Shown here piece by piece: positions 8,360 to 10,168 of a stretch of 52,025 nt of DNA. Below the pieces are notes generated by a model, which had not been told where the DNA came from, ran no database searches, and saw only the letters and a program-made list of their open reading frames with translations. Within the stretch, counting starts at the first letter, position 1. Every line of letters begins with the position of its first letter. This DNA comes from a virus, in IMG/VR virus record IMGVR_UViG_3300046804_005538, positions 1 to 52,025 of that record; one strand, 5' to 3'. Both the position numbers and the translations under genes were made by a program.

Positions 8360-8574
8360 GTGGTGGATTTAAAGGAGATGTTTCTCCCAAAAAAGATAAA
8401 GAATTTAGACTTTATATTAAAAATAGAGAAGTTGACAAATTAATCAAAGAATATAAAAAACTTAAAAAATATCAAAAATCTTCTATTTTTGAAATAGAAA
8501 AACTTTCTGGACAAGAAACAAAAATAGATAAACTAATTAACAAATACGGGATAGATCCTGAAGCAATTGAATAA
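8356..8574 (+). CDS. Small Lys-rich coiled-coil-like protein, 72 aa
   Basis: ATG 8356 (MSGGFKGDVSPKKDKEF) is set by the ATGA overlap; the upstream in-frame ATG at 8320 would overlap the preceding gene by 40 bases. The middle of the protein is almost entirely Lys, Glu, Leu and Ile in a helical pattern. It is followed by speD through a TAATG overlap. Unknown function. Confidence 0.65.
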   Translation: MSGGFKGDVSPKKDKEFRLYIKNREVDKLIKEYKKLKKYQKSSIFEIEKLSGQETKIDKLINKYGIDPEAIE

Positions 8575-8900
8575 TGGGAAAGCACTATCTACTTAACTTG
8601 TATGGATGCTCGTTTGTTCTTTTGGACGACGAGCGTTGTCTTATAGATTTACTAGAAAACGCAGCAGCAGCAAGTGGTGCTACTGTAGTTCAGACTATTT
8701 CAAAGAAGTTTGATCCGCAGGGAGTTACTGTGATTTGTTTGTTGTCTGAAAGTCATATCAGTATTCATACTTGGCCAGAGGAAGGTAAGGCAGCAGTAGA
8801 TGTTTATACTTGTGGTGATTGTAACCCTAAGATTGGTTGTGATATAATTATTCAGCAGTTATATGCAGCTAACCATACGTTAAGTTACATAGAACGGTAA
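8574..8900 (+). CDS. speD: S-adenosylmethionine decarboxylase proenzyme
   Basis: 108 aa, the bacterial class 1B AdoMetDC length. The self-cleavage site is LLSES at 57-60/61 (cleavage between Glu59 and Ser60, giving the pyruvoyl group), followed by HISIHTWPE with the conserved His and by VYTCGDC with the active-site Cys near residue 80. The enzyme makes decarboxylated SAM, the aminopropyl donor for spermidine. It is a recurring cyanophage auxiliary gene. No spermidine synthase is visible here, so the host enzyme must use the product. The start overlaps the preceding stop (TAATG). Confidence 0.95.
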   Translation: MGKHYLLNLYGCSFVLLDDERCLIDLLENAAAASGATVVQTISKKFDPQGVTVICLLSESHISIHTWPEEGKAAVDVYTCGDCNPKIGCDIIIQQLYAANHTLSYIER

Positions 8901-8921: not shown

Positions 8922-8929
8922 AATAAATA
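8922..8929 (+). promoter_or_regulatory. Late promoter octamer AATAAATA
   Basis: Exact match to the NATAAATA late motif of T4-like cyanophages, 22 bases after speD and 7 bases before the structured leader at 8936. It would start transcripts almost exactly at the riboswitch. Confidence 0.7.
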
Positions 8930-8935
8930 TCCACA

Positions 8936-9031
8936 CGTTCATCCCTTTTGGGACGGAAGTAGGCTAACGCGGAACGGATCGTTCATTCGCTATTCGCAAA
9001 TAGCGAACGCAAACGTTGAGCTAAAGGAACG
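8936..9031 (+). promoter_or_regulatory. Glutamine riboswitch, Downstream-peptide class (glnA/DP motif)
   Basis: Seen: P1 pairs CGTTC (8936-8940) with GAACG (9027-9031). P2 pairs TCCC (8942-8945) with GGGA (8950-8953). The junction CGGAAGTAGG (8954-8963) matches the conserved E-loop strand of glnA/DP RNAs. P3 pairs GGCTAACG (8962-8969) with CGTT-G-AGCT (9014-9022, one bulge), and the conserved AAAGGAACGCAC closes the motif. An extra perfect nine-pair hairpin (8986-8994 with 8999-9007) is inserted in the P3 region. Known: this RNA class binds L-glutamine in cyanobacteria and sits before short ORFs. The assignment is from memory of the consensus, not a covariance search. Confidence 0.8.
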
Positions 9032-9062
9032 CACCAATACCAAAAGTAAAGGAGCAAAACCA

Positions 9063-9149
9063 ATGGCACTTATTCTTATTAAACAAAAAATGCTGAAAGA
9101 ACAGCGTCTACGCGAAGCACAACTTTATATGGCATCAAAGCCAATGTGA
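9063..9149 (+). CDS. 28-aa downstream peptide controlled by the glutamine riboswitch
   Basis: ATG 9063 has an ideal Shine-Dalgarno, AAAGGAG at 9048-9054, eight bases upstream. The product starts MALILIKQKMLKEQRLREAQ, is basic and amphipathic-helical, and ends ASKPM. It is the only ORF between the riboswitch and the strong terminator at 9154. In cyanobacteria, glutamine riboswitches precede small inhibitors of glutamine synthetase (for example IF17). This peptide is far shorter, and sequence alone does not show that it belongs to that group. Its function is unknown to me. A role in host nitrogen metabolism is an inference from the riboswitch. Confidence 0.75.
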   Translation: MALILIKQKMLKEQRLREAQLYMASKPM

Positions 9150-9153
9150 TTGT

Positions 9154-9183
9154 AGAGAGGGACTTGACTCCCTCTCTTTTTTT
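9154..9183 (+). terminator. Strong intrinsic terminator of the riboswitch/peptide unit
   Basis: Perfect nine-pair stem AGAGAGGGA (9154-9162) with TCCCTCTCT (9169-9177), six-base loop, and T from 9177 to 9183. It starts five bases after the peptide stop codon. Confidence 0.93.
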
Positions 9184-9192
9184 ATGTAAAAT
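9164..9192 (+). promoter_or_regulatory. Sigma70-type promoter embedded in the terminator
   Basis: TTGACT (9164-9169) lies in the loop and first base of the 3' arm of the terminator. After 17 bases comes TAAAAT (9187-9192). The predicted start near 9199 precedes the ATG at 9216. Confidence 0.5.
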
Positions 9193-9215: not shown

Positions 9216-9449
9216 ATGGATAAAGAAAAGCTTAAGTTAATCATCAAAAACCTTGAATCTCTTGTAGATTGTTTGAAATCAGAAATCTATTCTGAGACTG
9301 ATGTATATAAACCTCAATATGAAGAAATTGCTTCTTATATTGGTGATTATGATGAAGTCTTTTATGATGAAGAAGACGATGATGTATTTGGATCGATAAA
9401 AGTAAATAAAAAATATAAACTAACAAACAACAGTGGAGATGAACTGTGA
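9216..9449 (+). CDS. Acidic hypothetical protein, 77 aa
   Basis: The N-terminal part ([20 protein letters not shown]) is helical. The middle is very acidic ([16 protein letters not shown]). No known motif is seen. It follows the promoter at 9164-9192 and its stop overlaps the GTG start of thyX, so it is probably co-transcribed with thyX. Unknown function. Confidence 0.6.
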
Positions 9450-10168
9450 AGGAGATGTTTGAAGAATTTGAATTCATGAAACCAGAAGTAAAACTGGTGT
9501 CGGTAACACCAGACGCAGAGAAACATATGGCGTATTGTGCGCGTGTTTCTAATCCAAAGAATCAAGACAATCAGAGTTTTGATGGATTGCTTAAGTACTG
9601 TATTAAGCATCAGCATTGGAGTATCTTTGAGCAAGCAAGTTTGACTGTAGAGATTAATACTACAAGAGGTATTGCAGCTCAAATCCTTCGTCATAGGTCA
9701 TTTACATTTCAAGAGTTTTCTCAAAGGTATGCTGATACTAATCTACTGAATCAGACTATTCCTCTTCCAGAACTTCGTCGTCAAGATGATAAGAATCGTC
9801 AGAACAGTATTGATGATCTTCCTGACTATCTCAGACTCACTCTGCTAGAAGATATTAGAATGCATTTTGAGCACTCTCAGAGACTCTACAACCGCCTTCT
9901 AGAGAAAGGAGTGGCAAAGGAGTGTGCAAGGTTCGTATTGCCATTAGCGACGCCTACACGCCTCTATATGACGGGTTCTGTGAGGTCTTGGATTCATTAC
10001 ATTGATTTACGTTCGGCTCATGGTACACAGAAGGAACATATGGACATTGCTGAGGCAGTTCGTTGTATTTTTACTTGTCAATTCCCAGCAGTTTCTACTG
10101 CTCTTGGTTGGACTCGGGATAACTGTGATGATTGTGAAAACATTCAACCATCAATTCGTATAGACTAA
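9446..10168 (+). CDS. thyX: Flavin-dependent thymidylate synthase
   Basis: 240 aa from GTG 9446, which overlaps the previous stop (GTGA). ATG 9455 is an alternative start three codons later. The ThyX signature RHRxxSxxxxSxR is present as [14 protein letters not shown] at about residues 82-95, and the C-terminal [15 protein letters not shown] segment carries further conserved dUMP/FAD-binding residues. The enzyme methylates dUMP to dTMP using methylenetetrahydrofolate and FAD, in the cytoplasm. It is common in T4-like cyanophages, which replace T4 Td by ThyX. It sits with other nucleotide and DNA metabolism genes. Confidence 0.96.

Follow-up and report, generated by a model that had tools for sequence, protein, structure and literature searches.

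The window, by which we mean the whole 52,025-base stretch of IMGVR_UViG_3300046804_005538, encodes a psbA-type Photo_RC protein, talC, zwf, gnd, speD, thyX, phoH, and T4-like tail genes, and judging from this gene content its source is a T4-like cyanophage. The riboswitch unit is flanked by speD (8574-8900) on one side and, on the other, by a small ORF at 9216 that lies ahead of thyX (9446-10168). The same RNA is found at the same place in Synechococcus phage S-PM2, between speD and thymidylate synthase/PhoH. As the initial annotation had described, the unit is self-contained, with octamer, aptamer, Shine-Dalgarno sequence, conserved ORF, and terminator all present, and its octamer, P1, P2, GGAAGTAGG, Shine-Dalgarno sequence, 28-codon ORF, and terminator each lie where that annotation placed them (Table 1).

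Table 1. Features of the riboswitch unit, in window positions
Feature	Position	Strand	Remark
Late-promoter-like octamer AATAAATA	8922-8929	+	
Outer P1, 5' strand CGTTC	8936-8940	+	
Outer P2 hairpin TCCC-TTTT-GGGA	8942-8953	+	Stem 8942-8945/8950-8953
Outer J2/3 CGGAAGTAGG	8954-8963	+	GGAAGTAGG is 8955-8963; G8955 is the counterpart of ligand-contact G22, and G8956, paired long-range with C9032, that of G23
Shared helix P3, 5' strand	8962-8969	+	Pairs with 9014-9022
Inner P1', 3'-type strand GAACG	8972-8976	+	Pairs with 8980-8984; G8977 long-range to C9010
Inner P1', 5'-type strand CGTTC	8980-8984	+	
Inner P2' hairpin TTCGCTATT-CGCA-AATAGCGAA	8986-9007	+	
Inner J2/3' CGCAAA	9008-9013	+	Lacks AGUA strand of E-loop; C9010 is long-range partner of G8977
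Shared helix P3, 3' strand	9014-9022	+	A9019 or G9018 bulged
Outer J3/1 AAAG, P1 3' strand GAACG (9027-9031), and C9032	9023-9032	+	C9032 is long-range partner of G8956
Shine-Dalgarno AAAGGAG	9048-9054	+	
ORF, ATG start, 28 aa, MALILIKQKMLKEQRLREAQLYMASKPM	9063-9149	+	
Intrinsic terminator, 9 bp and T run	9154-9183	+	

At Rfam curated cut-offs, no riboswitch is reported in the window. Under permissive settings, the covariance-model search proposed with the initial annotation does match glutamine-I/glnA (RF01739) twice, at 8978-9035 (31.7 bits, E = 3e-5 for the stretch) and 8936-8976 (28.4 bits, E = 3e-4), both below the gathering score of 35, and neither match describes the real structure of 8936-9032. 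Some relatives do pass the threshold; L128, for example, scores 41.1 bits with RF01739 across the nested form described below. Our own covariance model, built from 28 relatives with the window and its sister contig L019 left out, matches window positions 8936-9032 with 80.4 bits (E = 1.8e-18). Glutamine-II (RF01704, Downstream-peptide), also named in the initial annotation, was rejected at 20 bits against a cut-off of 33.

The outer junction is a P1/P2/P3 three-way junction with the conserved CGUUCA, GGAAGUA, and GAAGGAACG, in which AAAG replaces GAAG, a change that also occurs in relatives. Glutamine-I aptamers contact their ligand through C1:G59, G22, and C58, and the crystal structure has a long-range pair, G23-C60, that forms in the ligand-bound state (PMC5393176, PMC6698751). 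The equivalents of these contacts are present in the window (8936, 8955, 9030, and 9031), as is the long-range pair, G8956-C9032, which covaries in relatives. The proposed membership in the glutamine-riboswitch class is upheld by this outer junction of glutamine-I type with every ligand-contact letter, and by analogy with known members the RNA switch very probably senses glutamine.

The stretch that the initial annotation called P3 contains more than an ordinary loop: 8972-9010 form a second copy of the aptamer core, which had been missed. Two three-way junctions are predicted to face each other across the common helix P3, the outer formed by 8936-8963 with 9022-9032 and the inner by 8972-9010; the inner unit is an aptamer core with its 3' strand first, joined head to head with the outer unit through P3. 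Relatives were collected from IMG/VR and a phage collection, and 128 distinct RNAs were compared. Their elements run in the order CGTTCA-P2-CG[S1]AAGTARG (part A), P3 5' strand, GGAACG[S2]A (part B), CGTTCA-P2'-CG[S3]AAA (part C), P3 3' strand, and RAAGGAACG[S4] (part D), where S1 to S4 mark the equivalents of G23-C60. If the junctions are nested, S1 pairs with S4 and S3 with S2 (A with D, B with C); if the RNA is instead two ordinary, degenerate glutamine-I aptamers in tandem, with Rfam's two matches as the two units, S1 pairs with S2 and S3 with S4.

The tandem arrangement would account for the two separate Rfam matches and for P1 strand sequences that are interchangeable, and it has precedents both in known glnA RNAs (PMC2864571) and in seven true tandems that we met in viral contigs, yet its pairing fails in 34 of the 128 relatives (both long-range pairs complementary in 94/128), as against one failure for the nested arrangement. 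There, the outer pair is complementary in 128/128 and the inner in 127/128, with four main state combinations; these counts are of distinct relatives, and 128/128 overstates the number of independent events because swaps were not counted on a tree. In an alignment of 35 hairpin-type RNAs, the two nested pairs are kept in 35/35 and show 10 and 4 two-sided swaps; the tandem pairs are kept in 21/35 (60%) and show none. The window itself has S1 = G8956, S4 = C9032, S2 = G8977, and S3 = C9010, so that all are paired in the nested form and would be G-G and C-C in tandem. A tandem 3' unit would also lack GGAAGUA and a 5' unit GAAG, and closure of the units by their own P1 in cis was not found. P3, which joins A to D and thereby connects both halves, shows compensated variation at several pairs in the 35-RNA alignment; in its long, 8-pair form two positions are usually A-C mismatches, conserved in most. 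P1 gives no covariation signal because it never varies. Energy minimization folds the window aptamer into the nested form, although its folding energy lies only 1.66 sd below shuffles, and in 37/37 RNAs the tandem fold is the less stable of the two. Comparative evidence and minimum-energy folding thus both support the nested fold, and tandem aptamers, rejected on the long-range pair in the aligned set and among the 128 relatives, are very unlikely. We consider it likely that 8936-9032 form a phage-type glutamine-I riboswitch variant that has a second, circularly permuted core in P3 and that would bind glutamine and switch on a micro-peptide.

The two junctions of this nested RNA are not equally complete. 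The outer one has, besides all contacts, both strands of the E-loop (AGUA, and AAA replacing GAA) and would, from what is known of the riboswitch family, bind L-glutamine. The inner one keeps C1:G59, G2:C58, G22, and the long-range pair and lacks both E-loop strands; its role may be to bind a second glutamine or simply to brace the fold. Perhaps, although we give this somewhat less than an even chance, the nested fold contains a single, outer glutamine-I aptamer, and the inner junction holds no ligand and only stiffens or spaces P3. The missing E-loop strands would fit such a role, as would the inner-slot hairpins, which vary freely and give way to ORFs, whereas CGTTCA, CG[CG], and GGAACG[CG] never change in the inner junction and its long-range pair shows compensated swaps (127/128), which a plain spacer would not need. 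A nested RNA with the full glutamine-I consensus letters in both junctions occurs in single-cell contig AG-365-F14 (L373) and is possibly an ancestral or fully two-site form. In addition, the hairpin TTCGCTATTCGCAAATAGCGAA (window 8986-9007) is found in both P2 slots across phages, which suggests exchange between the two halves. The idea that TTCGCTATT...AATAGCGAA is a mobile palindrome was rejected, since 27 of its 28 copies in the collected loci follow CGTTCA and it therefore belongs to riboswitch slots.

The P2 loops of many relatives are long enough to hold genes. Loops of more than 90 bases occur at the inner P2' in 74/128 and at the outer P2 in 22/128 (both in 11, neither in 43); the window has no gene in either. 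Within an earlier set of 87 RNAs, 50 inner loops can be read as ORFs of 49-66 codons; their ATG lies within P2' or beside it, and nearly all of them end at a TGA or TAA in J3/1. All 10 outer loops examined contain ORFs of about 60-75 codons whose N-termini are often hydrophobic. Small loop ORFs are present in L134, L165, L167, L182, L377, L429, and others, many of them with stops in the conserved junction letters; L429 combines a 28-mer one residue off that of the window with a 68-codon ORF in outer P2. Several loop ORFs match PHROGs of unknown function: phrog_504 at the inner site, phrog_6471 at the outer, and phrog_13397 for the inner-slot ORF of L134, to which an outer-slot ORF of L165 is almost identical. 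The sequence of the P1' loop is GGAG, which is Shine-Dalgarno-like, in 40 of the 74 inner-insert carriers and 0 of the 54 others, counts that are uncorrected for kinship. To our knowledge, no riboswitch with genes inside its aptamer loops has been described. A bolder and rather doubtful proposal is that phages invented a two-site glutamine switch that binds two glutamines cooperatively through the common helix and that, where loop ORFs are present, acts as an either/or gene switch. At low glutamine, ribosomes translating the loop gene would run through the aptamer and unfold it; at high glutamine, the aptamer would fold and the downstream YRG/helix peptide would be turned on.

Glutamine-II switches turn genes on with glutamine, likely at the level of translation (PMC6698751), and a comparable mechanism may operate here. 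Without glutamine, the 3' strand of the aptamer (GCUAAAGGAACGCACC) would pair across the Shine-Dalgarno sequence and start codon; with glutamine, it would be held in P1/J3-1, the ribosome could load, and translation would be on. In a marine group of 83 relatives, J3/1 CTRAAG is complementary to CTTYAG beside the Shine-Dalgarno sequence (6/6 pairs in 42/83; the variable position has A opposite T in 29 and G opposite C in 20, counted over all 83), and ligand binding should therefore free the Shine-Dalgarno sequence. This anti-Shine-Dalgarno pairing of CTRAAG with CTTYAG is absent from the window. In the full-leader fold of the window, the 3' strand of the aptamer pairs with the Shine-Dalgarno sequence and start codon, so that the window platform may follow the logic of the marine group by other pairs, as modelled by energy folding of near-identical relatives, which show no covariation. 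In single-sequence folds the Shine-Dalgarno sequence is freer in the nested fold in 26/35, the computed change in exposure is small (0.12 to 0.23), and when the whole leader is folded, the calculation favours the free fold over the nested one.

With the spacing of T4 late promoters, transcription would start at about 8935, immediately ahead of the first aptamer base. The window has fewer copies of ATAAATA than expected (12 against 28.7), and many of these lie just upstream of virion genes, which makes the octamer copy ending 6 bases before the aptamer credible as a promoter. The late character assigned to the unit in the initial annotation has a single exact octamer behind it in the window and does not extend to the relatives: the octamer is degenerate in L019, late-type octamers stand at the promoter site in five of the 128 rows only, including L463, the near-duplicate of the window, and 106/128 have sigma-70-like promoters. 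The latter nearly always end 7-11 bases before the aptamer, and transcripts should therefore begin at the aptamer. Late expression is thus plausible for the phage of the window on the strength of its promoter letters and is no trait of the riboswitch family. The conserved upstream motif GGTAWCA..WTACAAA was rejected as a middle promoter, as its GGTAA is the end of speD and the remainder is inconsistent. Downstream, the terminator loop region contains TTGACT, the -35 element of a sigma-70-like promoter that precedes the next ORF; its -10 element is TAAAAT at 9187-9192, and the overlap with the terminator (9154-9192) is kept in L019.

The reading frame of the micro-peptide is conserved, as had been expected, with 6 synonymous and 0 replacement changes over the first 25 codons between the window and L019. 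A search in other cyanophages, also suggested with the initial annotation, found that the peptide aligns with helices of the peptides behind the same riboswitch in S-CREM1, S-PM2, DSL-LC03, and Bellamy, with a consensus of roughly LxxI[KR]xQ[IM]xKxx[RAK]LxxAQ. In those four phages the helix stands before, after, or beside YRGxxY, and the window peptide is the helix alone. The phrog_545 profile matches residues 3-24 of the window peptide weakly (E = 0.023; 2.6e-7 for the S-CREM1 relative). Peptides of phrog_545 usually also carry the YRG motif of DUF4278, and on these alignments the window peptide is classed as a putative helix-only relative of them. A protein search with the 28-mer alone gave one weak phage match only (E = 4), and the window peptide has no YRG motif or Pfam PF14105 match.

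The initial annotation further proposed that the peptide mimics a glutamine synthetase inactivating factor. The peptide is indeed small and basic, and YRG motifs of sister peptides behind the same riboswitch give weak matches to DUF4278 (PF14105), the domain at the N-terminus of IF17, an inhibitor of glutamine synthetase (PMC6316151); however, comparison of its helix with the IF7-like, glutamine synthetase-binding region of IF17 by hhalign returned a probability of 0.4% and no similarity, profile comparison with other C-terminal regions of DUF4278 proteins found none either, and there was no match in the PDB. Homology to an inactivating factor was rejected on these results, a sequence link of this peptide to glutamine synthetase is not supported, which leaves the indirect one through the sister peptides, and mimicry is improbable. 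Direct action on glutamine synthetase is a guess, given the lack of profile similarity to the IF7-like or DUF4278 C-terminal regions, and it is likewise a guess that the product, a short basic helix, probably has a host protein of nitrogen metabolism as its binding partner. The terminator directly after the ORF might instead mark the ORF as a regulatory leader, or as untranslated, with read-through to the 9216 ORF and thyX as the real target, but this is highly improbable given the purely synonymous changes over 25 codons, the good Shine-Dalgarno sequence, the resemblance to peptides behind the same riboswitch in other phages, the promoter-like site of the next gene itself, and a terminator with no visible link to the aptamer.

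The full form appears viral in view of its scarcity in scans of cyanobacterial and other genomes. It occurs once in 292 cyanobacterial genomes, in a Prochlorococcus single-cell contig (L377) whose neighbouring genes look like phage genes, and the other six matches span 55-57 bases, as a plain glnA aptamer does. When 84,980 genomes were scanned for the pattern, eight stretches emerged, mostly marine metagenome or single-cell contigs and including at least one chance match.

With glutamine-I (RF01739) this RNA shares CGUUCA, P2, CGGAAGUAGG, P3, and AAAGGAACGC of the outer junction, as well as the three-way topology, the long-range pair, and the E-loop strands of that junction; it differs in the second, permuted junction held in P3, in an Rfam score below the cut-off, and in the ORFs in P2 loops of relatives. 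Tandem glnA aptamers likewise have two copies of the conserved core in one leader, but there each copy is closed on its own, with a linker between them (L009, L044, and others), whereas the copies in the window are nested with a common P3. Glutamine-II (RF01704) also has small downstream peptides with YRG/DUF4278 motifs in marine picocyanobacteria, and the inner junction of the window type resembles it in lacking an E-loop and in a long-range pair that is mostly C-G; the window-type RNA lacks the pseudoknot hairpin and scores 20 bits against 33. Glutamine riboswitches in cyanophages are already on record, and in the available text of the reports found they appear as Rfam matches only (PMC9964418, PMC9602691). 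For example, the glnA element of S-CREM1 is a nested RNA of the same family, 82% identical to that of the window, followed by a peptide of 48 aa with a C-terminal helix similar to the window peptide; the element was published only as a glnA Rfam match, and the double architecture and peptide are not discussed in the text available (PMC9964418).

What the locus holds is therefore a real, conserved glutamine riboswitch variant together with a conserved micro-peptide, known in kind and new in form; we found no earlier description of the nested form in the glutamine-riboswitch literature, where a prior mention is possible. A double form that is widespread, seems specific to viruses, and has ordered slots for genes in its loops offers a testable case of a virus reading the nitrogen status of its host, a case of aptamer evolution by insertion and permutation, and a case of possible cooperativity in a low-affinity amino-acid switch. 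It also connects nitrogen sensing in cyanophages with several PHROGs of unknown function, and its split, sub-threshold matches show why standard Rfam scans miss the nested form.

Other arrangements of the glutamine aptamer were also observed in viral contigs. The true tandem glutamine-I aptamers (L009, L044, L047, L053, L055, L062, and L093) lie upstream of other basic micro-peptides. Five contigs (L028, L032, L038, L046, and L083) have a glutamine aptamer with an insert of about 60 bases in P3 (GAAAACCTCCC...GGGGAAAGCAAGTA) reminiscent of the association with tmRNA reported for phage Melnitz (PMC9004378); reading them as aptamer-tmRNA fusions was rejected, as ARAGORN called no tmRNA there. 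Finally, plain glutamine-I riboswitches are present in many viral contigs (e.g., L017, L022, L033, and L110), where they precede several seemingly unrelated short-peptide families, a wider class of glutamine-controlled phage micro-peptides.
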